DNA from: Chitinophagaceae bacterium
Lineage (GTDB): Bacteria; Bacteroidota; Bacteroidia; Chitinophagales; Chitinophagaceae
DNA length: 64,000 nt
Assembly (NCBI GenBank): GCA_947381435.1
Contig: CANCVE010000002.1
Span: 1 to 64,000, forward strand
Direction of reading: 5' to 3'
In this document: piece after piece, positions 8,770 through 47,575 of the stretch
Layout of the letters: each line of letters starts with the position of its first letter
How positions within the stretch are numbered: the first letter of the stretch is position 1
Made by a program: the position numbers and the translations under genes
The notes under the pieces: model-generated
The model's input: the letters and a program-made list of their open reading frames with translations, nothing else
Databases searched by the model: none
Told to the model about the DNA's origin: nothing

Positions 8770-9219
8770 TTACTCAAACACCAAATTGCCTTTACTTTTT
8801 ATCTGCTCGGGATAGATCTCGGCAACCATTTGTACGCCACTGATAGATTTTATCCCTTGTTTAATGAAGTTAAAATGATCCTCTTCGATAGCATTACCAC
8901 GAATGAGCCACAGATAATCTGTATGTTTCAACTCTGGAAGTAGATACTCTCCATCATATTGTGTATGATAAATAATGTATTCCATAAATGGATTGGTAGG
9001 CTCCGTAGATTGAAAGATGGAGAAATAATACTTCCTGTTTTTCTTCTCCACTGGAACTTCCTTCTCGCTGCAAAGCTTAAAGTTAAGGTTGAGCAGATTG
9101 TTCAACTTCAAACAGAACTGGTGCTTTTTCAGCGGGGCAGTAATAGCTATTAAACGAGTTCCTTTCAAGAAGTCCTCGTTCAATCCATCTATGTTAAGTA
9201 TAATGTTTTTCCCTGCCAT
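8770..9219 (-). CDS. IPExxxVDY family protein
   Basis: A 149-residue Bacteroidota-specific protein. It has the family's name-giving motif in a slightly altered form, LPELKHTDYLWLI (LPExxxTDY), preceded by the ESTEPTNP/YHTQYDG-like middle region and the N-terminal AITAPLKKHQFCLKLNNLL segment. There is no signal peptide or membrane helix, so it should be cytoplasmic. No biochemical function is known for the family; in relatives it is often close to pyruvate kinase, which is not seen here. It lies between the Hsp15-like gene and the UvrD/PcrA helicase, all on the minus strand. Confidence 0.75.
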   Translation of the reverse strand: MAGKNIILNIDGLNEDFLKGTRLIAITAPLKKHQFCLKLNNLLNLNFKLCSEKEVPVEKKNRKYYFSIFQSTEPTNPFMEYIIYHTQYDGEYLLPELKHTDYLWLIRGNAIEEDHFNFIKQGIKSISGVQMVAEIYPEQIKSKGNLVFE

Positions 9220-12330: not shown

Positions 12331-12845
12331 TTAACATCCAATTTACGGCAATTATCACTACTTGAAAAATTTAGGAATTGAGTTAATAGTATCAGTTATA
12401 GTTTGCAATTAATGAGATAGAAATAACATGTACATGCCTGTAATCATCACGTTTATAGGCTTGTACATGTGTATTATGACATAAACATCACGTTTATAGG
12501 CTTGTACACTTGTATTATGCCATAATCATCACGTTTATAGGTTCGTACACTTGTATTATGCAATAAACATCACGTTTATAGGCTCATACACTTGTATTAT
12601 GCCATAATCATTTCGTTTATAGGCTTGTTGATAAGTACTATTTCATAAAAATTTTATTTTTGGGTAAAGGGATTTCGGCTGAATAACAATCCAAATAAGG
12701 ATTAATATTAGAAGACATTTTACATTAGTGATTTAGTATTTTCTTCAACATTGTGTTCCCGTATTAGAAAATTAACAAGTAGATAGTTTGCATTGAATAT
12801 TTATTTCCGCTCTTTAAGTTACTTTCGTCACATTATAAAATAAGC
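12331..12845. repeat. 41-bp tandem array (five units) between mscL and the PorV-like gene
   Basis: CATCACGTTTATAGGC-type units start at 12445, 12486, 12527, 12568 and 12609, an exact 41-bp period. The unit continues with TTGTACACTTGTATTATGCC. The first unit is preceded by ACATGTACATGC and the last decays. The remaining bases of this 515-bp gap (12650-12845) hold the PorV gene's promoter; a TTGAATATT...TACTTTCG arrangement near 12791-12832 approximates the Bacteroidota -33/-7 pattern. Confidence 0.8.
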
Positions 12846-27265: not shown

Positions 27266-28171
27266 ATGTTTATTATCATTTTGGGCATCATCATTTTCTT
27301 TGCTGCCTTTTCATTAAAGAAAACAAATACACCGTTTAGCCAGTTTGCAGGTGCTATCCGCATTGCCGGTATCGCATTTATGTTTCTTGGATTTTTTACT
27401 TCTTGCATTAAACAAATAGGCGCTGGAGAAATAGGCGTTCTTTCTTTGTTTGGAAAGGTACAAGACAAGGTACTTCCTAGTGGTCTACACGTGGTGAGCC
27501 CATTGATGGAGGTAAGTAAAATGGATATTAGAACGCAGAACTACACTATGAGTGCCGTACACACCGAGGGAGAAGTTGCTGGCGACGACGCGATTAGAGC
27601 TTTAACGGCTGATGGACTTGAAGTAGTGATTGACCTTACAGTATTGTATAGGGTACTATCTACAGAAGCCCCGAAGATTGTGCAAGAAACAGGTTTGGAT
27701 TATAAAGAAAAGATTGTGCGCCCAATAACTAGAACTAAGATTAGGGATAATGCCGTTTATTTTACCGCTGTGGATTTGTATAGCAAAAGAAGGGATGAAT
27801 TTCAGGGCAAGATTTACAAGAGTATTGAAGAAAGCTTTAAACAACGTGGATTGGTGTTGGAACAATTATTAGTGAGAAACATTTCTCTACCTGCGATGGT
27901 GAAGACTTCTATTGAAGAAAAGATTAAGGCTGAACAAGATGCACAAAAGATGGAGTTTGTGCTTCAGAAAGAAAAACAAGAAGCAGAACGTAAGAGAGTG
28001 GAAGCTCAAGGTATTGCCGATTATCAACGTATTATGAGCTCTGGATTGACTGACAAACAGTTGCAATACGAACAAATACAAGTGATGAAAGGATTGGTTA
28101 CTTCACCAAATAGTAAGGTGATTGTGATGGGTGGAAGTAAAACGCCTGTGATATTGAACGGGGAGAAATAG
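27266..28171 (+). CDS. SPFH/prohibitin family membrane protein
   Basis: A 301-residue protein with two hydrophobic segments near the N-terminus (FIIILGIIIFFAAFSL; AIRIAGIAFMFLGFFTSC), then an SPFH/Band 7 domain (about 45-220: EIGVLSLFGKVQDKVLPSGLHVVSPLMEV, DGLEVVIDLTVLYRV, YTMSAVHTEGEV) and a charged coiled-coil helix (EEKIKAEQDAQKMEFVLQKEKQEAERKRVEAQG). Prohibitin-type proteins assemble into large membrane-bound rings or caps and act as scaffolds, often with AAA proteases such as FtsH. It is alone, flanked by repeat arrays on both sides. Confidence 0.9.
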   Translation: MFIIILGIIIFFAAFSLKKTNTPFSQFAGAIRIAGIAFMFLGFFTSCIKQIGAGEIGVLSLFGKVQDKVLPSGLHVVSPLMEVSKMDIRTQNYTMSAVHTEGEVAGDDAIRALTADGLEVVIDLTVLYRVLSTEAPKIVQETGLDYKEKIVRPITRTKIRDNAVYFTAVDLYSKRRDEFQGKIYKSIEESFKQRGLVLEQLLVRNISLPAMVKTSIEEKIKAEQDAQKMEFVLQKEKQEAERKRVEAQGIADYQRIMSSGLTDKQLQYEQIQVMKGLVTSPNSKVIVMGGSKTPVILNGEK

Positions 28172-28320
28172 TTCATTTAGTCGAGAGTCGAAAGAGAAAA
28201 GTCGAAAGTCGTAAGTCAAAAGTTAAGAGTTAAAAGTCGGGAGTACAAAAAGTCGAAAGTCGTAAGTTAGAAACTTGAGTTCTTAATTTACGACTTTCGA
28301 CTTTTTATTTTCAACTTTCG
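28172..28320. repeat. Heptameric AGTCGAA repeat ending in a terminator-like hairpin
   Basis: About ten 7-mers of the type AGTCGAA/AGTCGTA/AGTTAAG run from 28180 to 28265. The last three and their inverted copies form a hairpin with perfect 19-bp arms (28247-28265 and 28288-28306; arm starts AAAAAGTCGAAAGTCG) and a 22-base loop, with A- and T-runs outside. It lies between the convergent SPFH and DegT genes and probably terminates both. Confidence 0.8.
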
Positions 28321-28321
28321 A

Positions 28322-29524
28322 CTATTTACTTATTGCTTTTTTTATTGCTGCGGCCATTTTTGCACCTTTATCATGAATTTGGTCCTCTGTCCAAGCCAAA
28401 CTAATAGCTGTAGAAATACAACGACTCATGATGGCATCACTTGCACTAAAGTCTTGCGTTTGTAGTTTTAGTAAAGCAGCTTTCTGTTCATTGCTAATAT
28501 TATTTAGCGTATGGACTTCTTTTAGGTGCTGCCACTTTTTGATATAATGCCAGTTATTATTGAACCAATAAAAGTTACCTGCCAATATCCCTTGCTCTTT
28601 TAGTTCCTCTATTGCTGCTTGCATTAAAGCTTCTGTAGGTAAAAACCAACTAATAAAACTATAGCTATCGCCTTCGGCATCTGGCACAGACCTAAAAGTA
28701 ACTTCAGGTATCTGTTCTAGATAGCTTTTAAGGATAAGGTTATTATTCTTTTGGATAGATAGAATCTTGTCTAATTTACCAATCTGAGCCAATCCTAAAG
28801 CCGCATGAAGTTCACTAATACGATAATTGTACCCAATGAATGGGTGTAAATCTGCCCCTCTGTCTACGCCCAAATGATCGTGACCATGATCGGTGTATCC
28901 ATCACATTTAATATAAACATCCTTATTATTGGTCATCACTACACCACCTTCTCCGCAAGTAATTGTCTTCACAAAATCGAAGCTAAAGGTACCGGCATCA
29001 CCAATAGTGCCTAAAGCCTTTCCTTTATAGGTGCCACCAATTGCTTGGCAAGCATCTTCTATCAAAATCAGGTTATGTTCCTTACAAATTGCTTTTAAAG
29101 CATCTAAATCTGCCATGCTACCACACATGTGAACAGGCATTACGCATTTAGTCTTTGGGGTAATTGCCGCCCTAACTGCTACAGGGTTAAGGGTAAGGGT
29201 TTCATCAATATCTACCAAAACCGGTATAGCTCCTACGCTTAGTACTGCCTCGAAACTTGCCACAAAAGTGAATGCAGGCATGATAATTTCGTCTCCATAA
29301 CCAATATTCAATGCTGCCATTGCTGTAGTAAGAGCAGCGGTGCCACTACTTGCCAACTGGGCATAACTACAACCAAAAGTTTCTGTTATTTTCTTTTCTA
29401 ACTCTACTGATTTAAATATTCCTTTTCTTGGCCCATCAAAACCATAACGCATGATGATGCCAGTTTCCATTACATCATTAATGTGTTTCCTTTCTTCTTC
29501 TCCAAATAATTCAAAGCCTGGCAT
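28322..29524 (-). CDS. DegT/DnrJ/EryC1/StrS family PLP-dependent aminotransferase
   Basis: A 400-residue fold-type I enzyme. Family features: LASSGTAALTTAMAAL near residue 60, VDIDETLTLNPVAV (PLP-pyridine aspartate region), LIEDACQAIGGTYKGKALG, and the PLP lysine K186 in SFDFVKTITCGEGGVVMTNN. The C-terminal half includes GYNYRISELHAALGLAQI. Such enzymes aminate keto-sugars for surface polysaccharides or dehydrate deoxysugars; the substrate is unknown because no sugar cluster is adjacent. The stop overlaps the heptameric repeat, and zapA lies upstream in the same direction. Confidence 0.92.
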   Translation of the reverse strand: MPGFELFGEEERKHINDVMETGIIMRYGFDGPRKGIFKSVELEKKITETFGCSYAQLASSGTAALTTAMAALNIGYGDEIIMPAFTFVASFEAVLSVGAIPVLVDIDETLTLNPVAVRAAITPKTKCVMPVHMCGSMADLDALKAICKEHNLILIEDACQAIGGTYKGKALGTIGDAGTFSFDFVKTITCGEGGVVMTNNKDVYIKCDGYTDHGHDHLGVDRGADLHPFIGYNYRISELHAALGLAQIGKLDKILSIQKNNNLILKSYLEQIPEVTFRSVPDAEGDSYSFISWFLPTEALMQAAIEELKEQGILAGNFYWFNNNWHYIKKWQHLKEVHTLNNISNEQKAALLKLQTQDFSASDAIMSRCISTAISLAWTEDQIHDKGAKMAAAIKKAISK

Positions 29525-29554: not shown

Positions 29555-29605
29555 TTTAATGATACCCCCCCATTCCCTAAAGGGGCTAAGAAAGCCTCCG
29601 TTTTT
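29555..29605. repeat. CCCCC...AGGGGC repeat-like sequence
   Basis: A C-run followed by CCCTAAAGGGGCTAAG lies between zapA and the DegT gene. Variants of this C-rich/G-rich hairpin are scattered in many Bacteroidota genomes. Short and degenerate here. Confidence 0.35.
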
Positions 29606-29627: not shown

Positions 29628-29948
29628 TCAGTTTGTTGTTTCCGATTCTTCAGGAATCAGGATTTTATCAAGATGACGCTCTAAAGATGCTATTTTATCT
29701 GTGGCATTTTGTATATCTACAATATGGCTTGCAGTCTTGGTTTCTTCTGTGGCCAACCAAATCAATACCATACTTATATAGTCTTGCATGTCTTTGCCGG
29801 CAAATTCTCGCTTATATTCTACAATCTTGTCGTTGATTATTTTAATGGTACCACGCAATACGCCTTCATCTTCTGCGGCAACCTTTAGGCGATAAGTCCT
29901 ATCGGCAATGGCAATGTTTACGGGTAATAATTCTTTATTTTCTTCCAT
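29628..29948 (-). CDS. zapA: Cell division protein ZapA
   Basis: A 106-residue protein: N-terminal beta-hairpin domain (LPVNIAIADRTYRLKVAAEDEGVLRGTIKIINDKI) and a C-terminal coiled coil (about 65-100). ZapA crosslinks FtsZ filaments. It lies next to a ZapB-like small coiled-coil gene and pheT, an arrangement that is frequent in Bacteroidota. Cytoplasmic. Confidence 0.9.
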   Translation of the reverse strand: MEENKELLPVNIAIADRTYRLKVAAEDEGVLRGTIKIINDKIVEYKREFAGKDMQDYISMVLIWLATEETKTASHIVDIQNATDKIASLERHLDKILIPEESETTN

Positions 29949-29954
29949 TCTTTT

Positions 29955-30037
29955 TTATTTGTCGGGAGTCGGGAGTAACGGGAATCGAGGGTTTGTAGGT
30001 TTTACTTCTGATTCTCGTAACTAACGATTCGCGGTTA
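29955..30037. repeat. Heptad-type GTCGGGA repeat between zapA and the coiled-coil gene
   Basis: GTCGGGA, GTCGGGA, GTAACGG, GAATCGA and GGGTTTG follow each other with a 7-bp step from 29959, and CTCGTAACTAACGATTCGCGG (split here as two parts) further on is related. It is a degenerate member of the heptameric family. Confidence 0.5.
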
Positions 30038-30337
30038 TTACTTCTTAGGCATTGAATTTAAAAGAACCAAGCATTTATCAATATCTTTTACATAAGAATT
30101 TATTTTCTTGCCTAATTGTTTCTTTTCTTCATCCGAGAAAGAACCTTTACTCAACCGAAGGGCTGCTAGCTTTTCTTCAAGGTCTTTGAGCAATGTTTCT
30201 TTATTCGTTAAAAGCAAATCTTTCTTGGCCAATTCCTTTTTCAAGCGAGCATTCTCGCGATGCAATACATCGTGTTGCTTTATTACACGCATCAGCTTTT
30301 GCTGAAACTGTACCAATTGGTTACCTAATGTAGTCAT
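30038..30337 (-). CDS. Small coiled-coil protein (ZapB-like)
   Basis: A 99-residue protein that is almost entirely one predicted coiled coil (residues about 5-65: QLVQFQQKLMRVIKQHDVL, RENARLKKELAKKD, LLTNKETLLKDLEEKLAAL), followed by a second helix (EEKKQLGKKINSYVKDID). No signal peptide. Its place between pheT and zapA suggests it acts with ZapA in cell division, as small coiled-coil partners do elsewhere, but sequence alone cannot prove it. Confidence 0.75.
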   Translation of the reverse strand: MTTLGNQLVQFQQKLMRVIKQHDVLHRENARLKKELAKKDLLLTNKETLLKDLEEKLAALRLSKGSFSDEEKKQLGKKINSYVKDIDKCLVLLNSMPKK

Positions 30338-30394
30338 TTCCTTAATTGATAATTATTAATTGATAATTGACAGTTGCAAATTATCAATTACAAT

Positions 30395-32815
30395 CTATTT
30401 TCTTATTTCTGCATTCAACTCGCTTTCAAAAGAGCTTATTATCTTGCCCATCATGGCATCCGTTTCTTTGTCAGTAAGCGTTTTTTCTTCATCTAAGAAA
30501 GTAAAGTTAACAGCCATCGACTTTTTGCCAACACCTAGTTTATCACTTTCAAAAACATCAAACAAACGCATAGATTGCAATTTAGTCAGATTTGCCTTCT
30601 TCAACACCGTTTCGAGGGCATTATAGGTTGTGTTTTTATCCACCACCAATGCTAAGTCTCTCTGTACAGCTGGGAACTTAGAAACTTCCTTGTAAACAAT
30701 CTTGTTCTTTTCTACCAGTTGTAATAAGGCAGTATAGTTGACATCAACAAAATATACAGCCTGTTTTAAACTGAATGCCTTCAAGGTTGCTGTATTAACA
30801 ACCGTAATGCTAGCAATGTTTTGCTTTGCAACAGATACAGAAATAGAATCGCTTCCTTCGGCTTTAGAAAACTTTAGTTTATCCAATCCGCAAAGGTTTA
30901 TGATGGCTTCTGCAATACCCTTAGCTCTGTAGAAATCGAAAGACTTAGCCTTTTCTTGCCAAGTATCTTCATGGTTATCTCCTGTGATATAGATTGCTAG
31001 ATGTTCATCTTCGCGATAAGAACCTACACCTTTGGTATGATAGGTCTTGCCGTATTCGAATAATTGTAGGTTATTGTTCCTACGGTTATTGTTGTAGGCA
31101 ATACATTCCAAACCTGTTTCCAACATTGAAGGACGTAGTACATCCAAATCGGCACTTAGGTTATTCATCATCTTTACCGTTCCAGCAAGAGTTTCTTCAT
31201 TAAAGTATTTACTGTTGGTAATAGAGTTGGTTACAATTTCATTAAAGCCTTGACCTGCCAAGTAACTTGCAATCTTTTCTTTTAAAGACTCTTTAAAGCC
31301 TAAAGAATTAATAGACGGAGAGATGGTGATAGTAGTCGGGATTCCAATATTATCCAATCCATCTATGCGGATAATCTCCTCTACCAAATCGGCTGGAAGA
31401 CTGATATCCGGTTTACTGAACGGAACGGTAACAGATATTTCATCAATCCCTTCTCTATTTATCTCGAAGCCTAGGGCTACCAATATCTTTTTAACAGTAT
31501 CTGGATGATAGTTCTTGCCACTTAGTTTCTTAAGGTATTGATACTTTAAGGATACAAGCGTCTTTTCTTTCGGTGTAGGATAAACATCAATAATGTCACT
31601 ACTAATTGAGCCACCTGCCACTTCTTTTATCAATAAGGCTGCACGCTTTAGTACGTTAATGGCATTAGAGATATCAACTCCTTTCTCAAATCTTGTGGCA
31701 GCATCGGTTCTTAATCCATGCTTCAAAGAAGTTTTTCTGATGCCTGATGAGGCAAAGACTGCACTCTCTAAAAAGATATTGGTAGTTGAGGATGACACGC
31801 CACTGTGCAAACCACCGAATACACCGGCAATACACATTGGTTGTTTATTGGCATCGCATATCAATAAATCTTCTGCAAAAAGCTTTCTTTCTTTCTCATC
31901 AAGTGTTGTAAATAAGGTATCTGCCGCTGCTTTCTTTACCACAATGCTTTTACCTTCTATTTTGTCAGCATCAAAAGCATGTAGTGGTTGCCCGGTTTCA
32001 TTCAGGATGAAGTTGGTAATATCCACCACATTATTAATGCTTCGCTGACCAATGGCTTTCAGTTTATTCTTCAACCATTCTGGCGATTCCTTTACCTCAA
32101 TACCACTAATACTAACCCCTGCATAGCGTGGACAAGCATCAGTATCTTCTACAGAAACAGGTATTAGCAGGTTCTTATTTTCCACTTTAAAAGAATTATT
32201 GAAGGGACTCTTCACCTTGGCTTCTCCAGAAAAATGATGCGTTAAATAAGCGCAAACATCCTTTGCCACGCCGAGGTGACTCATGGCATCCATACGATTT
32301 GGCGTGAGGCCTATTTCGTAGATGATGTCGTTGTATGGCTTAAAGTATTCAGCAGCAGGCGTACCCACCTTCACATCGGCTGGCAATACTAAGATGCCTT
32401 CATGACTAGTTCCTAAACCTATTTCGTCTTCGGCGCAAATCATTCCAAAGCTTTCTTCACCCCTAATCTTCGCAACGCGCATAGTTAACGGATTGCCAGA
32501 AGCTGGATAGATAGTAGTACCCACGGTAGCCACCACCACTTTTTGCCCCGCAGCCACATTGGCCGCACCGCAAACAACCTTTAGTGGTTCGGCAGCACCT
32601 ACATTAACCGTTGTTATCTTCAATTTATCTGCATTAGGGTGTTGGGTGCAGGTAAGCACCTCTCCTATTACCAATCCTTCTAGCCCACCTTTTACACTTT
32701 GGTAAGGCTCCATACTTTCTACTTCTAATCCAATGCTGGTAAGTATCTTAGAAAGCTTTTCGGGTTCTATTATTTCAGGTAAATATTCTTGTAACCAATT
32801 GTAGCTGATAGTCAT
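30395..32815 (-). CDS. pheT: Phenylalanine-tRNA ligase beta subunit PheT
   Basis: An 806-residue subunit of the alpha2-beta2 enzyme that charges tRNA-Phe. Domains in order: start MTISYNWLQEYLPE, tRNA-binding EMAP/OB domain (about 40-150: VIGEVLTCTQHPNADKLKITTVNVG), B3/B4 editing domain (TPNRMDAMSHLGVAKDVCAYL, ESPEWLKNKLKAIGQRSINNVVDITN, GLRTDAATRFEKGVD), B5, and the C-terminal ferredoxin-fold anticodon-binding domain (SKFPAVQRDLALVVDKNTTY). Normal full length. Probably heads a minus-strand unit with the ZapB-like gene and zapA. pheS is not in the window. Confidence 0.97.
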   Translation of the reverse strand: MTISYNWLQEYLPEIIEPEKLSKILTSIGLEVESMEPYQSVKGGLEGLVIGEVLTCTQHPNADKLKITTVNVGAAEPLKVVCGAANVAAGQKVVVATVGTTIYPASGNPLTMRVAKIRGEESFGMICAEDEIGLGTSHEGILVLPADVKVGTPAAEYFKPYNDIIYEIGLTPNRMDAMSHLGVAKDVCAYLTHHFSGEAKVKSPFNNSFKVENKNLLIPVSVEDTDACPRYAGVSISGIEVKESPEWLKNKLKAIGQRSINNVVDITNFILNETGQPLHAFDADKIEGKSIVVKKAAADTLFTTLDEKERKLFAEDLLICDANKQPMCIAGVFGGLHSGVSSSTTNIFLESAVFASSGIRKTSLKHGLRTDAATRFEKGVDISNAINVLKRAALLIKEVAGGSISSDIIDVYPTPKEKTLVSLKYQYLKKLSGKNYHPDTVKKILVALGFEINREGIDEISVTVPFSKPDISLPADLVEEIIRIDGLDNIGIPTTITISPSINSLGFKESLKEKIASYLAGQGFNEIVTNSITNSKYFNEETLAGTVKMMNNLSADLDVLRPSMLETGLECIAYNNNRRNNNLQLFEYGKTYHTKGVGSYREDEHLAIYITGDNHEDTWQEKAKSFDFYRAKGIAEAIINLCGLDKLKFSKAEGSDSISVSVAKQNIASITVVNTATLKAFSLKQAVYFVDVNYTALLQLVEKNKIVYKEVSKFPAVQRDLALVVDKNTTYNALETVLKKANLTKLQSMRLFDVFESDKLGVGKKSMAVNFTFLDEEKTLTDKETDAMMGKIISSFESELNAEIRK

Positions 32816-33863
32816 TCGTCAAAATTAAAGAGGTGCAAATATATACTTCACAAAAAGGAAACACATCTAAATTTTGTTTTTTAAAAGTTGCGGTACTGTT
32901 AAGAACATAACATTAGTAATGCTCTAACATTCGAAGTTTAATTATGTGATAGATTAGATAACTCATGGAGAAATAAAGGGATTTAACAAATAGTTAAAAA
33001 TTAGAGGGTTAATGTAGCTTATGGAGAAGTAAAGGCTTAAACACATAGGGTTCATAGTATCATAGATCACATAGGTTTTATTTACAAATGGTTTAAGAAA
33101 AAGGGCACATAGGGAATGCCACTTCGTAGCATTGACCAACCTATTTTTTGAAGAAAATTATATAGTAGATTTGAGGGTAATGTTTCCTAGTTATATAATT
33201 TATGGAGAAATAAAGGCTTAAACACATAGGGTTCATAGTATCATAGATCACATAGGTTTTATTTGCAAATGGTTTAAGAAAAAGGACACATAGAGAATGC
33301 AACTTTGTAGCATAGACCAACCTATTTTTTGAAGAAAATTATATAGTAGATTCTTGGTGAAAATTAGGTTGATAATAGAAATTAAAGTCAAGCAATGTTT
33401 TGTTTTATTAACTATTTTATACCGCCCTTATCTATCGAATGCTCATTCTATTATCTTCGTTGCCCGTTTTATTATTCTCAAGGCATGAAGCAACCTTTTT
33501 TAGGTCTATTAAGCTTAAACTTATTGAAAAGGGTTGTTTCGTACCTCGCAATGACGTGGGTTTAGTTTATAATAGACACAAAGAAAATCGACGTGTCACC
33601 CTGAGTCTGTCGAAGGGTAGGAAATTGTACAAACCTGCTAAAGGACATAGGTAAATTGTTTGCCCTTCGACAGGCTCAGGGTGACAATCTTGCCGTTTGT
33701 TGAGATTAAAAAGCACATCATTCCCATTTTTTTCTGGTGCGCCAGATAAACTATTCGCAATGACCGATTGACCTAAGCTAATTTAAAAGCTGTAAAAAGA
33801 AGAAGAAATGGTTAAATGCTGTTAGTGAACTATTAATAAACCTTCAATTATAAAAATATTGCC
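32816..33863. repeat. Gene-free 1-kb region with 154-bp direct repeats and two REP-like hairpins
   Basis: Two direct copies of about 154 bp lie at 33019-33172 and 33200-33352 (offset 181 bp; each begins TTATGGAGAA and ends ATATAGTAGATT) with some 93% identity by eye; a shorter third start is at about 32955. A fold-back from TGAAGCAACCTTTTTT (33485) to AAAAGGGTTGTTTCGTACC (33536) is followed by CTCGCAATGAC. At 33595-33617 and 33663-33685, GTCACCCTGAGTCTGTCGA and its inverted complement form a 23-bp arm hairpin with one mismatch. I see no credible gene; the region lies between the divergent pheT and outer-membrane protein genes. Confidence 0.75.
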
Positions 33864-37404: not shown

Positions 37405-38014
37405 GGAAATGGATTGTTAAAAGTTGAAGGCAAAGTTGCTCAATTTATTTTGACTCTAAGATATTTAGGTATCAATTTGTCAACCTTTTAAGTGCCATCC
37501 CTATAAGAGTTTGAAACCCTTGTGTGGAATTGATGATTTGCGAAAACCGAGCATAAAACGGCTTTAAGTGACCAAATAATATCAAACAGATGCTAAATAA
37601 TACCACACTGTAACGCATTTACACCTCTTGGAAGCGTGGTTATACCTCTTAGAAGTGAAGTTATACCTCTTGGGAGTGAAGTTATACCTCTTGGGGGTGC
37701 AGTTACACCTCTTAGATGCGCAGTTACACCTCTTGGAAGAGTATTTATACCTCTTAGATGTGCAGTTATACCTTTTGGGGGCGTAGTTACACTTCTTGGA
37801 TGTGCAGTTACACCTCTTGGGGGCGTAGTTACACCTCTTGGATGTGCAGTTACATCTCTTGGATGCGCAGTTACCCCTTTTGGAGGCACAGTTAATATAG
37901 ACTTGCAACGAAATGTATCTTTTTGGTACTTTAAGTGAACTCTTTTGTCCTATAAAACAAACCTGAGAAGTGTTAATTTCAGGCATTGAGGTCATACTAC
38001 TCAGTGTACCCAAT
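37405..38014. repeat. Intergenic region with a 21-bp tandem array of thirteen units
   Basis: From 37621 to 37893 a unit of the type ACACCTCTTGGATGTGCAGTT repeats with an exact 21-bp period: the A[CT]ACCTCTT start falls at 37621, 37642, 37663 and so on to 37873. The spacer varies among GAAGCGTGGTT, GGGGGCGTAGTT and GATGTGCAGTT. Because 21 is a multiple of three, frames stay open on both strands, giving seven-residue protein repeats, but these have no start context, signal or family. It lies between convergent genes; 37405-37617 shows nothing else. Confidence 0.9.
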
Positions 38015-38074: not shown

Positions 38075-41000
38075 CTATTTACCTTGAAACATTACTTTTT
38101 GTGTATCATAACGTGTTCCTGCTCCTTGTAGAGAAACGAAGTACAATCCTTTCTTCATTGTCTCGTTTAGGCTTACAGATACTGTGTTATTCCCTTGAGT
38201 AGCATTTACTTGTTTGGTACTTACTACTCTTCCTAGGTTATCAATAATAGTTAATTGTAATTGTGCAGCTGCAGGGCTTGCAAAGCTTACCTTAAAGTTA
38301 CCATTACTTGGGTTAGGGCTGATGCCTACTGCTTTAGCTTGTAAACTTCTTTCGTAAGCGATATCTACTTTACTAAATGCTGCGTTGCTGATACCTGCAT
38401 TGAAGCTGATGGTTTGTCCTGTTGGGTTCTCGATGTTGTACACCACAGAAGTAACATCTGACAAATCCATCGTTGCTGGCAAACCATTATCGGTAGACTT
38501 AAACTCGCTTGTACCTATTTGGTAAGTTTGTCCGTCTTGTAAGCCTGTAATGTAGTAAGTATATTGACTCTTCCAGTTGTTTACCCCTTCTTTTGTGATG
38601 GTAATCTTCATGTTTAATCCTTCGGTATTTGTATTGGCAGTAAACTTGAAAGACTTATATCCACTTAGGTTTACAGCACTTGCACCACCTCTTAGGTATT
38701 TATAAACAGACACATAGCTTGGTGTGGTCACTTGCACTTTTACATCTCTTAGTAAAGCATATTCATCTGCACTAGCTACACGGCTACTGTTGTTTGCCAC
38801 ATTAAACTGAGCAACCGAAGTATTGTTGTCGCCACTTGTTCCCCAGATACCATCAGCAATGTATAACATGTCTGTAGTGGTATTATTGAACACCATACTG
38901 ATGTTGGCATCGTAAGTATCGCCTACTGGGATAGACACTGTAGACCTTCCATTTGCACCGATAGTGAATGGAACAATTACTTTGTTATCTATTGTAGTGT
39001 TTTCGGTAGCATGTTGGGTTAAAGTGAAATAACCACTTGTGTTTGCTGTTCTGTTGTTGATGGTAAGGTTAAGGTTTGCACCTTTTCTGTTAGCCGCAGA
39101 AACATACGCACTTGGAAGGTCGTTGCCATTGCTTAATTCAGATACAGGCATGGTAGCTTGAAGTCTGTTCAATATTTCTTTTACCATTGTAGTTACATCT
39201 GTTGGTGTAGAAGCCCACAATTGATAATTTATCATGGTGTCTTCGCTAACGTAATCTGGCATTAACCAATTGCTCTGTAGAGAATAAGTACTTCTACCAG
39301 CTTTTTGTCCTGCAGAGAAGCTTACAGCGTATTCTTTGCTTCCATCAGCTTGAAGGATAGTGTAGCGGATGAATGAATGACTTGCTATTTGTACATTCTC
39401 TATGTTCAACAATTGTGCACCCTTCAATCTATCACAGATTGGTTTAGTATGAGAATAGATACCGCCTACAGTTTTAGTAGCAAAGGCAACTGCTTTAGGA
39501 GAATTATTCAATGTAAAATCTATAGTTCTTACATCTATTGCATTAGTAATGCTAGTAAGATCTGCTACTGCTGCCGATTTATCATAAGCAGTATAAGCAC
39601 TATTTACTTGGTAAGGCATCACAGAATAGAGTGTCTTAGCAGTAATACCGAAAGTAGCAATGCTTCCTTTTTTAGGAGCCACTATCTGCTCGGAAGCAGT
39701 GTATTGCACCGCACCATTTTGTCCACTCTTATATAGGTTAAAGTTTCTTGTTCCTATTGCAGCACCAAGAGGTTTACTTTCTAGGCCTCCTGTACCACCA
39801 GAAGTAACAGAACCTGTATCGCAACTTACTACAAAGGGTAGGGTTGCAACAGCAGAACATCCACTATTGGTAACAGTGTAAGTAATGTTTGCTTTACCAT
39901 CTGCTATGGCAGTAACTGTTCCAGAAGCATCTACTGTAGCTACACTATTATTTGATGAAGCCCATATACCACCTAAAGTAGCTTCAGAAAGCGATGTTGT
40001 TGTTGTAGCACAAATAGTATCAGTACCAACTATTGGTGCAACTGTAGGAAGAGGATTAACCGTTAATACCAAACTAGCCGCACTATCGCAACCTGCTGCA
40101 TTGGTAAGATGTGCTGTGTATGTACCAGCAGCACTGTAAGAAGTTCCATTGAATGTATAAGAACCTCCATCACAGATACTTGCATTGGTAGTTGAAGTAG
40201 AAGATGATTTCTTTGTTAGTACCAAGGTAGCTGCACTATCGCAACCTGCCGCATTGGTAAGGTGAATAGTATAAGAACCTGCTGCATTGTAGCTTGTGCC
40301 ATTCCAAACATAAGGAAGGCTACAAACACTTACTGCTGTGCTAGAAGTAGTTTTTGCTTTAACCGTTAATACCAAACTAGCCGCGCTATCGCAACCTGCT
40401 GCATTGGTAAGATGTGCTGTGTATGTACCAGCAGCACTGTAAGAAGTTCCGTTGAATGTGTAAGAACTTCCATCACAAATACTTGCATTGGTAGTAGATG
40501 TTGAAGATGATTTCTTTGTTAGTACCAAAGTAGCTGCACTATCGCAACCTGCCGCATTGGTAAGGTGAATAGTATAAGAACCTGCTGCATTGTAGCTAGT
40601 GCCATTCCATACGTAAGGAAAACTGCAAACACTTACTGGCGTGCTAGAGGTAGTTTTTGCTTTAACCGTTAATACTAAACTAGCCGCACTATCGCAACCT
40701 GCTGCATTGGTAAGATGTGCTGTGTATGTACCAGCAGTACTGTATGAAGTTCCGTTGAATGTATAAGAACCTCCGTCACAAATACTTGCATTGGTAGTAG
40801 AAGAAGTGGCAGTACATGCTACTGCACAACCAGTTACACTAGGCGTAAAAGGATAATAGTGTAGTTCGCCACCATTTTGAGAGAATGACTTACCAATAAC
40901 TTGTCCTTCTATGTTTGATTGATTAACTGTTTTGGTGATGTCGGCATTAGGTGCAAAAACAGTTCCTTCGATGGTGCTGTTGCCCGCAATATTTATTGAT

Positions 41001-41869
41001 GATGCATTGTAGAAATTGTAGATGATATATGGTGCGTTATTACCGCTAATACCTGCTTGGTTCCAAACATTCCATGTAAAACTGCCCGAAGCATTTACAT
41101 TAATCACCAATACATGGCTTGCATCGGGGCTATTGGTAAAAGTGATTCCGTTGGTTACACTGTTCAAATCGCTACCAGTTATGTTCAACACATTTGTACC
41201 ACTTGCCAAAGTAATTTTTATCTGTCCAGAAGTAAGTACATCGCCACATTGAGAACTGTGCTTGTCTTGGTTAGGATTAGATAATATATTGGCAGTGCCA
41301 GAACATGCAGCCAAGCTAGTAGCAGTGGCTTTAAAGGTAGTAAATGCAGTAGAGAAGTTAATTTCTGTACTTGTATTTGCATCGCAAATAGGATTGTTTG
41401 ATGCAGACACTTCTGTACCCCAAGCAAAGGCATTTGAATTGATATTGATATTTGGCGTAGAAGCATAAGATGCCGAGCTGCCAGTAATGTAGATGTTTGA
41501 AGAGGCATTATTGTTGTCGCGGTACCATGTTTTGATGTTAGAACCACTACAGTTGCCAATTTTTACATATCTGCCACTATTAACCTGCAAAGAACCAGAA
41601 GATAGGTTAACCTTACCACCTACAAATAAACCAATTGGCACGCTACTTACCGTAAAAGTACCATTGTTGTGAATGTTTACTTGATAATTACCCGCAACAG
41701 TAAGGTCGCCGCCAATAGCTATTGGGCCTTCAGACTCATTAGTAGTGAGCGTTGCATTGTTTTGCAAAAAAGCATTGAAGCCTATAGCAGGTGCTGTGGG
41801 ACTTTGTGCAGATGCACCAATAATTAACATGGTAATTGATGCAGCGAGAGATAGTAACTTCTTTATCAT
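38075..41869 (-). CDS. Large T9SS-secreted surface protein: choice-of-anchor A domain, tandem repeats, Ig-like domain, C-terminal sorting domain
   Basis: A 1264-residue protein starting at ATG 41869 with a signal peptide (MIKKLLSLAASITMLIIGASAQS). Next is a choice-of-anchor A/collagen-binding-like beta-helix domain (about 22-350: IGFNAFLQNNATLTTNESEGPIAIGGDLTVAGNY ... IEGTVFAPNADI). Five Cys-containing repeats of about 50 residues (SICDGGSYTFNGTSYS...AHLTNAAGCDSAASLVLTV) follow, then a Big_2-type Ig domain, an unrecognised beta-rich region, and a type A T9SS sorting domain (GISPNPSNGNFKVSF ... KKGLYFVSLQGAGTRYDTQKVMFQGK). It should be secreted by the T9SS encoded at 16.7-24.5 kb and attached to the cell surface, likely in adhesion (inference). 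Confidence 0.85.
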   Translation of the reverse strand: MIKKLLSLAASITMLIIGASAQSPTAPAIGFNAFLQNNATLTTNESEGPIAIGGDLTVAGNYQVNIHNNGTFTVSSVPIGLFVGGKVNLSSGSLQVNSGRYVKIGNCSGSNIKTWYRDNNNASSNIYITGSSASYASTPNININSNAFAWGTEVSASNNPICDANTSTEINFSTAFTTFKATATSLAACSGTANILSNPNQDKHSSQCGDVLTSGQIKITLASGTNVLNITGSDLNSVTNGITFTNSPDASHVLVINVNASGSFTWNVWNQAGISGNNAPYIIYNFYNASSINIAGNSTIEGTVFAPNADITKTVNQSNIEGQVIGKSFSQNGGELHYYPFTPSVTGCAVACTATSSTTNASICDGGSYTFNGTSYSTAGTYTAHLTNAAGCDSAASLVLTVKAKTTSSTPVSVCSFPYVWNGTSYNAAGSYTIHLTNAAGCDSAATLVLTKKSSSTSTTNASICDGSSYTFNGTSYSAAGTYTAHLTNAAGCDSAASLVLTVKAKTTSSTAVSVCSLPYVWNGTSYNAAGSYTIHLTNAAGCDSAATLVLTKKSSSTSTTNASICDGGSYTFNGTSYSAAGTYTAHLTNAAGCDSAASLVLTVNPLPTVAPIVGTDTICATTTTSLSEATLGGIWASSNNSVATVDASGTVTAIADGKANITYTVTNSGCSAVATLPFVVSCDTGSVTSGGTGGLESKPLGAAIGTRNFNLYKSGQNGAVQYTASEQIVAPKKGSIATFGITAKTLYSVMPYQVNSAYTAYDKSAAVADLTSITNAIDVRTIDFTLNNSPKAVAFATKTVGGIYSHTKPICDRLKGAQLLNIENVQIASHSFIRYTILQADGSKEYAVSFSAGQKAGRSTYSLQSNWLMPDYVSEDTMINYQLWASTPTDVTTMVKEILNRLQATMPVSELSNGNDLPSAYVSAANRKGANLNLTINNRTANTSGYFTLTQHATENTTIDNKVIVPFTIGANGRSTVSIPVGDTYDANISMVFNNTTTDMLYIADGIWGTSGDNNTSVAQFNVANNSSRVASADEYALLRDVKVQVTTPSYVSVYKYLRGGASAVNLSGYKSFKFTANTNTEGLNMKITITKEGVNNWKSQYTYYITGLQDGQTYQIGTSEFKSTDNGLPATMDLSDVTSVVYNIENPTGQTISFNAGISNAAFSKVDIAYERSLQAKAVGISPNPSNGNFKVSFASPAAAQLQLTIIDNLGRVVSTKQVNATQGNNTVSVSLNETMKKGLYFVSLQGAGTRYDTQKVMFQGK
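40058..40820 (-). repeat. 303-bp tandem coding repeats inside the surface protein gene
   Basis: AACCGTTAAT marks recur at 40058, 40361 and 40664, an exact 303-bp (101-codon) period. Each period holds two different repeats, one with CDGGSYTFNGTSYS and one with CSFPYVWNGTSYNAAGS. The copies are about 97% alike at the nucleotide level by eye, so they were duplicated or homogenised recently. Confidence 0.85.
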
Positions 41870-41952
41870 AATGTGTGTTTTTGTGTCGTTAGAAAACAAT
41901 AAAATATCCCCTTTCGTACGCTGTAAAAATGAAGTAGACACACTGGTACACA

Positions 41953-42122
41953 TATCCCTAAGATTAGGGGGTACGACTAAATAATGATAATATCAGCTGT
42001 TTTTACGTTTGCCTAACAGTAAGGAGGCAAGGGTATTCCCCTAATTTAAGGGATACGAAACCGATAGTTCTGGAGGGCTAAAGCGTTACTAATCCCCCTA
42101 ATTATTTGCTATTGTAGGGATA
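41953..42122. promoter_or_regulatory. Three related inverted sites upstream of the surface protein gene
   Basis: Site 1 (41953-41974) TATCCCTAAGATTAGGGGGTAC, read on the other strand as GTACCCCCTAAT-CTTAGGGATA, is nearly identical to site 2 (42033-42056) GTATTCCCCTAAT-TTAAGGGATAC. A looser site 3 with the half-sites CCCCCTAAT (42094) and TAGGGATA (42115) is further out. They lie 84-250 bp upstream of the ATG at 41869 and look like binding sites for a dimeric regulator. Confidence 0.45.
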
Positions 42123-42354: not shown

Positions 42355-42648
42355 TAATTTGCTGCCAATGGATCAATAGCTTTAGGACGAATTAAGTACT
42401 TTGCTCCTTATTGATTAATGTACTGCCAGCAAATCAGTTGTTTTGCTCCCTATTGATTGATATACTGCCAGCAAATTAGTTGCTTTGCCCCGTGTTGATT
42501 GATCCACTGCCAGCAAATCAGTTGCTTTGCTCCTTGTTGATTAATCTACTGCCAGTAAATAATCTAATTTGCCCCGTGTTGATTAATCAACTGCCCCCAA
42601 ATTGAATAATTCGTCCCAAAGCTATTAATCCAGTGGTAGCAAATTATT
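42355..42648. repeat. 42-bp tandem array closed by inverted end units
   Basis: Five units start with ACTGCC at 42422, 42464, 42506, 42548 and 42590, an exact 42-bp period (unit ACTGCCAGCAAATCAGTTG plus TTTGCTCCTTGTTGATTAATCT-like second half). The left flank (42355-42396, AATTTGCTGCCAATGG...) and right flank (42604-42646) are near-perfect inverted complements of each other over about 40 bp. The rest of 41870-42916 is the divergent promoter region of the two large secreted-protein genes; I see no gene in it. Confidence 0.85.
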
Positions 42649-42916: not shown

Positions 42917-45900
42917 ATGAAAAATAACTTCACCCTAACGTGCATCTGCCTATTCTTTTTCTTTTCCCTCAACGCACAAACAAACTATACCAGCAAGATT
43001 GTAAACCCAAGTTTTGAAACGGGAGACTATACAGGTTGGAACTGGACGGGCAGAACGGGCGGTTGGACCACCGTAAACACCGATGGAGACAATACTAAAA
43101 ACGGACAATACATTGCGGGCTATTGGAACACTACCATTGCCGATGTGGAGTGTTCGCAAACCATTACTGGGCTTCCCAATGGTTATTATCAGCTAAAAGC
43201 CCTCTTAACCGTAAGCAATAACCGCTCTGGCAATGAGCGTTTGTTTGTAAACAATGGCGCTGCCACCACTTCAAAGCTATATGGCACATCAACCAACCCT
43301 GCCTATAGCGTCAAGAACCTAACTATATTGGGAAATACAGAACAGTATTCTTTTGGTGGCAATACAGAATCGGCTAGCGAAGCAGGTCCTTTCTATAAAG
43401 TATCGGTAGTAAGTCATGTAACCAATGGAACACTCACAATCGGGGTGCGCACTAGTGGTAAGGCAACTGCCAATGGATACGACTTTTCTTATTCCCCTTC
43501 GGGTGATGTAGGATTTTTCAAGTTCGACAATTTTACATTGGCAGAAGTATCAAGCGTAGCTACTCTCGATAATATTACATTGAGTACTGGATCGCTTGAT
43601 GCCGCTTTCGATGCTGCAACCACTACCTACAATGCTACCCTACAGCCCGGCGCTACAACCGTTACCCCCATTGCGTTCCCCACGGTTGATGGTGTTACCA
43701 TTACGGGCAATACCCCCGTTGATGTTTCATCGGGCAGTGGCAGTTCTACCATCACCATAACTGCGTTGGATGGTTCTACCCAAAAAACGTATACCATTAA
43801 TTATACGGTTCGCAAGTTTGACGCTTCCGCACAGCAAGCAAATCTGTACACCAACAACTTTCCTTTGTCGGACGTAACCTTGCTTGATGGTCCTTTTAAA
43901 CATGCAAGAGATTTAAATACACAAACACTTCTAAAATATGATGTTGACAGATTGTTGTCTCCATACAGAAAAGAAGCGGGCTTGGCAGCAAAAGCAACAA
44001 GCTATAACGGTTGGATAGGACTTGATGGACACATTGGTGGGCACTATTTAACTGCTTTGGCCATGAATTATGCAGCCACAGGAGACACGGCCTGCAGAAA
44101 CAGGATGAACTATATGGTGTCCGAGTTAAAGGCTTGTCAAGATGCCAATGCCATCAACAATGCCTCGTGGGGAGTTGGTTATGCAGGTGGCGTACCTAAT
44201 AGTAAAAGTGTTTGGAGTACATTTAAAGTAGGCACCTTTACCTCATTTCATGCGGCATGGGTTCCTTGGTATAACCTTCATAAAACCTATGCTGGACTGC
44301 GCGATGCATGGCTTTATGGTGGCAACGACACAGCTAAGACCGTATTTCTTGCTTTTTGCGATTGGGGCATTAATATAACGTCAAACCTTACCGACGCACA
44401 AATAGAAACCATGCTAGGCATAGAACATGGCGGTATGAACGAAATATTTGCCGATGCTTATGCCATAACCAACAATGCTAAATACCTCACGGCGGCAAAA
44501 CGTTTCTCGCACAAAGTAATATTCAATAGCATGTCTGCCGGGGTAGATAATCTGGATAACAAACACGCCAATACGCAAGTGCCCAAGGCGGTAGGCTTTC
44601 AGCGTATTGCAGAGGTATCTAATGATGCCAGCTATGCCAAAGCGGGATCTTTCTTTTGGCAAACAATTACGGACAAACGAACACTTGCATTGGGCGGAAA
44701 CAGCCGTAAGGAATACTTTCCGCAAGCATCTGCTTACTCCGATTATGTTAATGATGTGCAAGGGCCTGAGTCGTGCAATACCAACAACATGCTAAAGCTT
44801 ACCGAGGATTTGTTTAGGATACATCCCGATGCCGCTTATGCCGATTTCTACGAGAAAGCGTTGTTCAACCATATACTATCTACCCAGCATCCCGATCATG
44901 GCGGCTTTGTTTACTTTACTTCCACCCGTCCGCGCCACTACCGTGTTTACTCGGCACCCAACGAAGCCATGTGGTGTTGTGTGGGTACAGGCATGGAGAA
45001 CCATTGTAAATATGGGGAGTTTATATACACACATACTGCCGATACTTTGTACTTGAATCTATTTATTGCTTCACAATTGAATTGGAAAAGTAAGGGGATT
45101 ACCATTCGACAAGAAACAGCCTTCCCCGAAGAAGAGAAAACTACCTTGCGCATCTATACCACAACGCCTACTGCTTTTACCTTAAAAGTTCGTTCGCCAA
45201 AGTGGGTACAAGATAGTGCCTTAAAGATTGTGGTAAACACTGATACACTAAAGGTTATTGCGCAAGCCGAAAGCTATGTCTCCATCAACCGTGTGTGGAA
45301 TAATAACGACTCTGTGCGCATTTTACTTCCCATGCACAACAGCATTGAGCCATTGCCAAATGTGCCCAATTATGTTGCATTAATGCACGGACCCATATTG
45401 CTTAGTGCCAAAACCGGCACAGAAGATTTGGCAGGACTGATAGCCGACGATAGTCGGTTGGCACACATAGCTAGTGGTACACTTTTACCTTTGGATAAGG
45501 CCCCAATTATTGTTACCGAAAGCAGTAATGCGGTTGCAGCCAACGTTGTTGCGGTTGCCAATGTGCCACTCAATTTTAAATATAAGGGCGTGTTTGCCAA
45601 TAGCGCAGATTCATCCTTGCTGTTACAACCTTTTTACAAGGTTCACGATGCCCGATATATGATGTATTGGCTTACCATTAGTCAGTCGCAATACCAACAC
45701 ATGCTAGATAGTGTTGCCGCTGCGCAAAAGACTGCATTAGACTTAGAATCGCGTACAATAGACCAAGTGGCTCCGGGAGAGCAGCAACCAGAATCGGATC
45801 ATCAGATACATAGTTCAAACTCTAATACAGGAAATTATCAAAATGAGTTCTGGCGCGATGCGAATGGTGGCTATATCAGCTACCGATTAAAGACTGCTAA

Positions 45901-46708
45901 GAAGACAGACCTATCACTGATGGTTCGCTATTGGGGCAATGAGGTTGGGGCAAGAACTTTTAATATTTATGTGGACGATTCACTGCTTGTTACGGAGAAT
46001 ATTAGTGGCAAATGGAAACTTAATCAGTTTGAGAATGTGGAATATACCCTCCCGATTGCCATGACTGCTGGCAAAGATACGGTAACAGTTAGGTTTCAGG
46101 CAATTGATGCAAAGAACTATGCAGGAGGCATCTTTTATGTAAGGATATTGCAGCCTTTAAGTGTGGTTACACCAGTAGGCTTATCCAATTTTTTGGCACA
46201 GAAAGAAAGAAATACAGTATCTCTTGCTTGGCAAACTGCCAACGAAACCAATGCAGCCTACTTTGTGGTGGAACGTAGTAACAATGGACAGCAATTTGGC
46301 GAAGTAGGCAAACAGGCTGCTGCGGGTAACAGTTCCTCAATCAAAAACTATAATCTTATAGATAATCATCCCGCAAACGGGAGCAACTACTACCGCCTGA
46401 AGATGGTAGACAAAACAGGAAAGTTTACTTTTAGTAAGATAATATATATGCAGTTTACAGTAAACAGTAATCAGTTATCAGCGTATCCAAATCCTGGTAA
46501 GGATATGGTGAAGGTTTTTATCAATGTAGTAAAAGGAGGCAATACCCGTTTTGAGTTGTATAATTCAGTAGGGAAAAGGCAATTATCCTTCAATAAAACA
46601 TTGAAAGAAGGCAACAATACCTTCAATATGGGCGTAAATCAATTACCCAAAGGAATTTATTATTTAAAAGCCGAAGGAAATGCAACTATAAGTTTGGTAG
46701 TGGAGTAG
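42917..46708 (+). CDS. T9SS-secreted GH127-type beta-L-arabinofuranosidase-like protein
   Basis: A 1263-residue protein. Signal peptide (MKNNFTLTCICLFFFFSLNAQ); a galactose-binding-like beta-sandwich (about 25-210: NPSFETGDYTGWNWTG); a cadherin-like beta-sandwich (about 213-295); then the GH127/DUF1680 alpha/alpha-barrel (about 310-860: SDVTLLDGPFKHARDLN, GWIGLDGHIGGHYLTALA, GVGYAGGVPNS, FVPWYNLHKTYAGLRD). E618 and C620 (PESCN) with C687-C688 (MWCCVGTGMENHCKYGEF) correspond to the zinc and nucleophile-cysteine site known for GH127. A further beta-rich region and a T9SS sorting domain (LSAYPNPGKDMVKVF ... LPKGIYYLKAEG) end the chain. It should cleave arabinofuranosides of plant or bacterial polysaccharides on the cell surface. 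Confidence 0.9.
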   Translation: MKNNFTLTCICLFFFFSLNAQTNYTSKIVNPSFETGDYTGWNWTGRTGGWTTVNTDGDNTKNGQYIAGYWNTTIADVECSQTITGLPNGYYQLKALLTVSNNRSGNERLFVNNGAATTSKLYGTSTNPAYSVKNLTILGNTEQYSFGGNTESASEAGPFYKVSVVSHVTNGTLTIGVRTSGKATANGYDFSYSPSGDVGFFKFDNFTLAEVSSVATLDNITLSTGSLDAAFDAATTTYNATLQPGATTVTPIAFPTVDGVTITGNTPVDVSSGSGSSTITITALDGSTQKTYTINYTVRKFDASAQQANLYTNNFPLSDVTLLDGPFKHARDLNTQTLLKYDVDRLLSPYRKEAGLAAKATSYNGWIGLDGHIGGHYLTALAMNYAATGDTACRNRMNYMVSELKACQDANAINNASWGVGYAGGVPNSKSVWSTFKVGTFTSFHAAWVPWYNLHKTYAGLRDAWLYGGNDTAKTVFLAFCDWGINITSNLTDAQIETMLGIEHGGMNEIFADAYAITNNAKYLTAAKRFSHKVIFNSMSAGVDNLDNKHANTQVPKAVGFQRIAEVSNDASYAKAGSFFWQTITDKRTLALGGNSRKEYFPQASAYSDYVNDVQGPESCNTNNMLKLTEDLFRIHPDAAYADFYEKALFNHILSTQHPDHGGFVYFTSTRPRHYRVYSAPNEAMWCCVGTGMENHCKYGEFIYTHTADTLYLNLFIASQLNWKSKGITIRQETAFPEEEKTTLRIYTTTPTAFTLKVRSPKWVQDSALKIVVNTDTLKVIAQAESYVSINRVWNNNDSVRILLPMHNSIEPLPNVPNYVALMHGPILLSAKTGTEDLAGLIADDSRLAHIASGTLLPLDKAPIIVTESSNAVAANVVAVANVPLNFKYKGVFANSADSSLLLQPFYKVHDARYMMYWLTISQSQYQHMLDSVAAAQKTALDLESRTIDQVAPGEQQPESDHQIHSSNSNTGNYQNEFWRDANGGYISYRLKTAKKTDLSLMVRYWGNEVGARTFNIYVDDSLLVTENISGKWKLNQFENVEYTLPIAMTAGKDTVTVRFQAIDAKNYAGGIFYVRILQPLSVVTPVGLSNFLAQKERNTVSLAWQTANETNAAYFVVERSNNGQQFGEVGKQAAAGNSSSIKNYNLIDNHPANGSNYYRLKMVDKTGKFTFSKIIYMQFTVNSNQLSAYPNPGKDMVKVFINVVKGGNTRFELYNSVGKRQLSFNKTLKEGNNTFNMGVNQLPKGIYYLKAEGNATISLVVE

Positions 46709-47297: not shown

Positions 47298-47575
47298 CAA
47301 AAAGGCACTTTTCTCTTCAAAACATACACTCTTTTTGGCAAAGACGACACTTTCAGCCTCAAAGACTACACGTTGGAGCTGAAAGACGTGTCTTTGTAGC
47401 GCAAAGTGTAGTCTTTCGCCTCCAAAGACATGTCTTTGCTCTTCAAAGTGTAGTCTTTGCGTTCAAAAAGGTAGTCTTTGGGCGGCAAAGTGTAGTCTTT
47501 GCGCCCCAAAGTGTAGTCTTTGAGGCTGAAAGTGTCGTCTTTGCCAAAAAAAGTGTATGTTTTGCCTTTCATTAC
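47298..47575. repeat. 21-bp array of palindromic units with inverted ends
   Basis: Twelve units of the type AAAGTGTAGTCTTTGCGCCC start at 47319, 47340, 47361 and so on to 47550, an exact 21-bp period. Single units are themselves palindromic, for example CAAAGACATGTCTTTG at 47423-47438. The left end (47318-47370, AAAACATACACTC... GGCAAAGACGACACTTTCAG) and the right end (47510-47572) are inverted complements of each other over about 55 bp. It lies between convergent genes. The ORFs across it are a consequence of the 21-bp period. Confidence 0.9.

Follow-up and report, generated by a model that had tools for sequence, protein, structure and literature searches.

Heptad arrays at the locus

Within the window, i.e. 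the whole stretch of 64,000 nt analysed here, genes for an SPFH/Band 7 protein (27266-28171, plus strand) and a DegT-type aminotransferase (28322-29524, minus strand) converge on a gap occupied by tandem heptads. One or more outward-pointing arms of the AGTCGAA family (28179-28267, plus strand) begin 7 nt past the stop codon of the former gene, and a facing arm that reads ACTTTCG on the plus strand (28286-28332, minus strand) enters the stop codon of the latter. Both arms pair into a hairpin; on either strand the stretch folds far better than shuffled sequence, with z values of -6.1 and -7.0. A similar pair resides between gldB (59283-60329, plus strand) and apaG (60402-60788, minus strand), with an AGTCGAA-family arm starting 5 nt past the gldB stop codon (60335-60365, plus strand) and a facing arm adjoining that of apaG (60376-60399, minus strand). 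At this site, the other of the two gaps for which hairpins were originally proposed, folding beats shuffling on one strand (z -4.8; other strand -1.5). Two further AGTCGAA-family arrays overlap stop codons, namely that of an ORF at 8770-9219 (array 8712-8773, minus strand, outward, single and lacking a facing arm) and that of pyrD (47977-49068, minus strand; array 47941-47985, minus strand), beyond which a separate terminator-like hairpin is recognizable by eye. These two (8.7 and 47.9 kb), each a single array, fold no better than shuffled sequence (z about -0.75).

All four places with a 7-bp step, together with their contacts to stop codons, had been noted in the original prediction and are correct. 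The altered run it placed at 29959 exists as well, as 2.3 copies of GTCGGGA (29961-29976, plus strand), but lies immediately upstream of the zapA start (29628-29948, minus strand) and touches no stop codon. Three arrays had been overlooked. TAATTGA-family heptads (30342-30376) sit in the gap between a pheT-like gene (30395-32815, minus strand) and an ORF at 30038-30337 (minus strand); in several relatives this array is missing or different. Two facing arms of GTTGACC/GTTAACG heptads (48595-48656) are situated in frame within pyrD, in a loop preceding IIIGGNIGKNK, and a GH127 gene (42917-46708) contains CAGTAAT-family heptads (46451-46481, plus strand), likewise in frame, within the linker that precedes its Por_Secre_tail domain.

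Places at which at least 25 of 35 positions match were found in the window at lag 7 (3), lag 14 (4), lag 21 (6), lag 22 (1) and lag 28 (2). None occurred at the remaining lags between 3 and 30, and three shuffles per lag yielded none either. Rfam gave no match at gathering score across the window. Longer tandem repeats are also present, i.e. 181-bp units in 1.8 copies that are 95% alike between genes (33019-33352) and 303/150-bp units within an ORF at 38075-41953 (40056-40803).

Abundance and families across the genome

With up to two mismatches, AGTCGAAAGTCGNAAGTC matches the 4.88-Mb genome 312 times (157 forward, 155 reverse), and the same sequence written backwards does not match it on either strand. 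For a motif-free scan we used 862 kb, consisting of the window and 40 stretches of 20 kb from 11 contigs, a non-random sample because it is drawn from the longest contigs. The loosest setting returned 74, 64 and 86 mostly intergenic arrays at lags 7, 14 and 21, respectively, and at most 7 at each of the other lags from 3 to 13. A stricter setting left 16, 15 and 46, and shuffled sequence gave none at lags 2 to 24 under that setting. Merging produced 75 heptad sites, of which 41 reside in co-oriented, 17 in convergent and 5 in divergent gaps and 12 mostly within called genes; genes were called with an ORF and hexamer-score caller or as plain longest ORFs, so that start positions are approximate. 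Being 7-nt tandem units that are mostly intergenic and present many times per genome, the arrays belong to the heptameric tandem repeats.

About ten families can be told apart. Besides AGTCGAA, their units include AGTTATT/AGTGGTT, CAGTTAT/CAGTGAA, AGTTATG, AATTGAT, AGATATT, GGTTACA, GTTGACC and ATCGGGA. A second family, TTAGTKR, has 377 matches in the genome (control 6); within the order, 66 of 248 genomes contain it, and a few distant genera do so in large numbers. AGTCGAA matches range from 0 to 212 in 12 other members of the genus. Of four other genera represented by 100-kb stretches, two contain 4 lag-7 arrays each and two none.

Placement at stop codons and outward orientation

The idea that heptads are placed at gene ends is borne out. 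No more than 10 nt separate 43 of 74 arrays from a stop codon, compared to a mean of 23.8 and a maximum of 35 in 2000 random placements within the same gaps; starts, in comparison, attract 16 arrays, with 15.2 simulated. Lag-7 coverage peaks 10-30 nt downstream of stop codons, where it reaches 9% of positions. An even spread relative to genes and absence from relatives would have spoken against the original prediction; the arrays are unevenly spread and present in relatives. At 41% of 51 array-bearing 3' ends the stop triplet is repeated 7 nt past the real stop (8% of 396 control ends), and all three frames are stopped within 30 nt at 51% of array ends versus 15% of controls, but the 7-nt recurrence mostly reflects the many arrays that open with the stop codon.

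The arrays are oriented. Among 36 stop-side arrays in co-oriented gaps, 34 are richer in G than in C on the coding strand and two are tied; all 15 start-side arrays are richer in C than in G. Viewed from the gene, the AGT-type strand thus heads outward at both ends. We tested this rule on sequence that had played no part in finding it, namely on 80 of at least 118 AGTCGWA stretches from named genomes, whose titles cover Bacteroidota, Cyanobacteria, Proteobacteria, Phycisphaerae, Patescibacteria and others. From 85 arrays, 34 in ORFs and 10 at contig edges were removed, leaving 41 intergenic ones, 25 of them within 15 nt of a coding edge. These 25 stem from 19 genomes by title, five of them from one Hydrococcus MAG, and 24 point outward (16/17 at stops, 8/8 at starts; p 1.5e-6). 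More than 60 nt from an edge the bias is absent in the same 80 stretches (5/9 outward). Other heptads in the 80 cross-phylum loci, scored by G over C, are outward in 23 of 33 untied cases (5 ties); the corresponding figure for genus relatives and other genera, taken from stretches of their genomes, is 17 of 18. From a second scan, 80 of 120 stretches were tested. Viral contigs follow the rule more weakly once duplicates, in-ORF and edge cases are excluded: 63 of 92 arrays are outward, made up of AGTKATC (28/39), AGTKRTT (33/45) and AGTCGWA (2/8). Viral AGTCGWA in fact runs contrary to the rule, both within 15 nt (2/8) and at 16-60 nt (1/5), and the two other viral sets lean inward beyond 60 nt (1/10 and 2/13 outward). 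The polarity in bacterial genomes does not arise purely from stop codons contained in sense arrays, as 13 of the 17 stop-side arrays in the 80 cross-phylum stretches begin after the stop, AGTCGAA is stop-free in every frame and start-side arrays follow the mirror rule.

Hairpins, terminators and 21-bp arrays

Facing arms are common. When the strongest array was taken from each of 57 gaps, 27 had an inverted partner within the gap; matched with other gaps the share was 9.2%, and with shuffled gaps 0 of 57. Gaps of 45-300 bp number 308; a strong inverted repeat is present in 88, and 32 of these repeats belong to the heptad type, with a median arm length of 29.5 and a mean arm G+C content of 0.26. 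Only 2 of the 32 are followed by a T-rich 3' tail, as opposed to 21 of the 56 other inverted repeats (p 0.001), although the heptad class was defined by a cut-off on lag-7 identity and some of the 56 also look heptad-like. Canonical terminator patterns were found behind 3 of 28 array ends compared to 64 of 282 control ends, and none overlapped an array; separate terminators can be made out by eye beyond the array or between its arms at C2:47977, C3:11320, C3:38097, C3:62971, C3:80667 and C4:12852. As a class, the heptad hairpins lack the G+C-rich stem and T run of intrinsic (Rho-independent) terminators, and the suggestion that the arrays serve as terminators has to be given up for the class as a whole, all the more as arrays also occur inside genes. 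The impression arose because the 28.2 kb hairpin is one of the two with a T-rich tail, and an individual site such as this one may terminate transcription.

In the 14 hairpins listed, 119 of 238 arm 14-mers are found elsewhere compared to 64 of 531 loop 14-mers. Neither the 862-kb sample nor the relatives' stretches contained a near-identical whole hairpin at a second site; with loops unshared as well, copying of whole hairpins is rejected on this evidence, and movement of whole elements is not indicated. The order of units agrees between both arms above permutation (mean score 20.9 versus 17.1 in 28 hairpins, 5 of them individually below 0.05), an agreement that carries little weight because the arms had been picked for matching. 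Two other repeats deserve mention. A second inverted family bounding gaps, AACCACAAAGAACACAAAG facing CTTTGTGTTCTTTGTGGTT, occurs at C1:59529, C1:75826, C1:95757 and C3:69877, with a fixed arm order in these listed examples, and a repeat of about 130 bp at C8:18714-18842 of our genome (G000) has 26 listed places in relative G005.

Intergenic 21-bp arrays reside at 8049-8179, 37615-37894 and 47390-47544 of the window and at many places across contigs C1-C11; in the window a 42-bp period (42393-42602) and a 41-bp one (12441-12649) go with them. The 46 arrays counted in 862 kb under the strict setting have nearly each their own unit, several with a palindromic core. It had been pointed out that seven is one third of 21. 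A kinship of the two kinds is unsupported: the trend of the 21-bp arrays is opposite to that of the heptads, as they are commoner farther from genes, and they were seen in stretches of G005, G006, G007 and the genome itself but in none of those from the four other genera, two of which contain heptads in their 100-kb stretches.

Arrays inside genes

Ten arrays in the 862-kb sample are wholly intragenic. They are distributed over nine called genes and contain no in-frame stop; the host genes that were scanned include pyrD (dihydroorotate dehydrogenase), hemC (porphobilinogen deaminase), an epimerase, a GHMP kinase, an AAA_28 protein and two with Por_Secre_tail. We compared hemC in 11 genomes, two more giving no match. 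In the loop preceding GTSSIRR, an AGTCGAA hairpin is present in G000 and G005, other heptads occupy the position in G006, G009, G010, G012 and G004 (in G010 by eye only), a CCCCTAAAGGGG palindrome is found in G001 and G007, and G008 and G011 are free of repeats. A 27-base piece of the CCCCTAAAGGGG palindrome has a 93% match elsewhere in the stretches of G005; the same palindrome family is also present between genes in the window (29559-29600). A scan of pyrD in 13 genomes revealed GTTAACC-type units in G000, G002, G003, G006 and G010 and AATCGAA units in G004; inspection by eye added a few units in G001, G005 and G012 and none in G007, G008, G009 and G011. In three large proteins a translated heptad array resides just before a C-terminal stretch of the YPNP/FPNP type (46451-46481, C4:38351-38371, C10:9823-9858), and the two of these that were scanned carry the Pfam domain Por_Secre_tail. 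A role limited to transcript ends cannot account for such intragenic arrays.

Turnover between relatives

Orthologous gaps were compared with those of relatives G003 and G005. In 71 comparisons, arrays were present in both genomes in 9 cases, only in ours in 9, only in the relative in 3 and in neither in 50 (odds ratio 17, p 9e-5). The pairs are partly non-independent, since one gap may be compared with both relatives, and a few arrays were scored as absent for falling short of the cut-off. By our reading, the 9 shared gaps comprise 4 with the same family, inherited at C9:33358, C10:36721, C1:62584 and C1:72994, 3 with different families and 2 that are mixed. The gap at C8:6083 features three families across three species, and that at C1:78342 two families in two species with the third empty. 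The array in the gldB-apaG gap at 60.3 kb is absent from the corresponding gap of G005.

Origin of the heptad arrays

The families of the arrays, their positions, orientation and pairing, their occurrence in frame and the differing families at one site across species are direct observations. The reading we favour, if tentatively, is that the arrays are products of DNA-level copying and slippage that persist where they are tolerated. Short arms of about four or five heptads would arise at a site and lengthen or shorten in 7-bp steps, often as a facing pair. The families that recur genome-wide are limited in number, and at some sites one would replace another over evolution. New arms may be copied from other arrays by template switching, for which short matches (TAG/TAA/TGA or AGT, for instance) would act as seeds; slippage within the array and inverted copying between arms would follow. 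Selection would then leave arrays at harmless positions, i.e. stop codons, co-oriented and convergent gaps, protein linkers, surface loops and, less often, divergent gaps. The 'targets of a copying mechanism' of the original prediction fare better in this light than its terminators, as arms recur more than loops and families differ among relatives, although copying itself was not observed. The four sites inherited with the same family, the failure to detect whole-hairpin copies and the weak orientation in viral contigs count against copying, and copying alone explains neither the outward orientation nor the preference for stops over starts.

A purely local origin is the rival that survives best, though we consider it rather unlikely. 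Replication slippage by 7 nt and foldback (quasi-palindrome) correction would act at each site separately, nothing would move between sites, and similar heptads would recur because some slip more easily. Slippage by 7 nt has been proposed for heptamers, as reported in MacGregor (2015, PMC4679880) and Rehm (2015, PMC4692102), and it agrees with the varying number of units among arrays, with the failure to find copies of whole hairpins and with the shared unit order of arms, picked for matching as these were. Such a process does not readily produce identical arm sequences at many sites, nor a hemC loop that carries heptads in some species and the unrelated CCCCTAAAGGGG palindrome in two others, a piece of which is matched elsewhere in G005.

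A more sweeping version is unlikely: one widespread process would write heptads 5' to 3' outward from coding edges, using whichever strand leads away from the gene, in a telomere-like manner in many bacterial phyla, with the TAACTGA and GGGAATC repeats and perhaps STRR sequences among its outputs, and genomes would keep rewriting their sites with current families. Where two edges extended in this way face each other, a hairpin would result.

It is improbable that the arrays are RNA elements under selection, with REP-like hairpins past stop codons either shielding the mRNA, defining its end or slowing down ribosomes as they reach the stop. Contact with stops, the preference for co-oriented and convergent gaps and the good folding at 28.2 and 60.3 kb agree with such a role, and REPs no more than 15 nt from a stop have been reported to stall ribosomes (PMC12306157). 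As many as 30 of the 57 arrays, however, fall below the cut-off for a partner (some fuse both arms), single arrays are unfolded, T-tails and terminator patterns are as rare as described above, similar arrays are found inside genes and presence differs between close relatives.

That a Y1 (HUH) transposase moves the arms in the form of single-stranded hairpins is very improbable. REP elements are thought to be moved by RAYTs. The genome contains seven matches to Y1_Tnp (PF01797), on C49, C81, C137, C142, C40, C28 and C86, six of them partial and RAYT-sized, yet only one of these loci has a heptad array nearby, of the CAGTTAT type. Numbers of Y1 genes and AGTCGAA matches do not run in parallel either (2 and 191 in G003, 7 and 3 in G004, 5 and 0 in G007), a rough comparison as AGTCGAA does not stand for all heptads, and the link is unsupported both at the seven loci and across 59 genomes.

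Least probable of all are fail-safe stop codons under selection, by which a repeated stop would hit all frames since 7 is not a multiple of 3: the enrichment of repeated stops past array-bearing ends fits, but largely restates that arrays begin at the stop codon, AGTCGAA and GGGAATC units are free of stops, starts obey the mirror rule and intragenic arrays lack in-frame stops.

Comparison with known systems

Palindromic DNA in frame inside protein-coding genes is known from the Rickettsia palindromic elements, the copies of which are related over their full length. The in-frame palindromic inserts in pyrD and hemC resemble them, so that these elements may be regarded as the nearest case of palindromes within genes; in the 862-kb sample and the relatives' stretches, in contrast, full-length likeness was not found and sharing is confined to the heptad arms. 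Cyanobacterial STRR sequences are intergenic tandem heptanucleotides, and the likening of the arrays to heptameric repeats of other bacteria, made at the outset, was apt; a Hydrococcus MAG does contain AGTCGWA arrays.

REP elements share with the arrays the palindromes in co-oriented or convergent gaps near stops, and GTAG REP termini often provide the TAG stop (PMC3733652, PMC12306157). Our 63 non-genic sites conform in location (41 co-oriented, 17 convergent, 5 divergent). Each REP family, however, has one conserved sequence of 20-40 bp (PMC3733652, PMC12306157), whereas here heptad arrays share arms without loops; the association with RAYT/Y1 genes is also missing, at six of seven Y1 loci.

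Heptamer repeats are already a known kind (PMC4679880, PMC4692102), so far reported piecemeal in connection with translation control, quadruplexes and slippage. Among the titles and abstracts surveyed, none describes an outward orientation shared across heptad families or the replacement of families at orthologous sites, though other papers could. An orientation common to several families and phyla, together with differing families at one site even in essential enzymes, points to a common cause. Such hairpins should not be read as terminators from one genome; the arrays look like fast-changing DNA insertions and not like signals that end transcription.

Published unit sequences recur here upon rotation (AGTTATC, ATCGGGA), AGTCGAA being a different heptamer. 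The GGGAATC repeats of Xanthomonas and the GGGGA(C/T)T repeats of Nostoc are described by Rehm (2015, PMC4692102). Rotation turns GGGAATC into ATCGGGA, a unit present here at C3:51637. In Xanthomonas GGGAATC is mostly intergenic, with few cases in divergent gaps, and lies nearer to the 5' neighbouring ORF (mean 28 versus 160 nt); facing pairs number 70 and 75 in two species, and prominent repeats are located at different genes in each. By our reading, placement and facing pairs amount to an outward orientation. GGGAATC repeats are called quadruplex-forming there, and most of our families are too G-poor for this. Nostoc differs in that facing pairs are few, 18% are same-strand versus 34% opposite-strand, and no clear outward rule is reported.

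Among the closest systems are the TAACTGA direct repeats that MacGregor (2015, PMC4679880) describes from Beggiatoaceae, Cyanobacteria and five Bacteroidetes. TAACTGA is the rotated reverse complement of AGTTATC/CAGTTAT, a family present here, and as in our case the heptamer is mostly intergenic, lies at gene edges and is patchy among relatives; indels of 7 nt are described in Cyanothece. The work deals with one heptamer, related ones being rare as repeats in its main genome, whereas the genome studied here holds many families. A sample of 22 intergenic sets from Microcystis is mixed and follows no strict rule, as 6 run forward to a start, 8 run in reverse to one and 8 lie between stops. In Maribeggiatoa and Flexibacter litoralis, in turn, most sets run forward into the start codon, which is outward as here, and one set in F. 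litoralis lies in reverse directly past a stop, which is again outward and matches the arrays described here.
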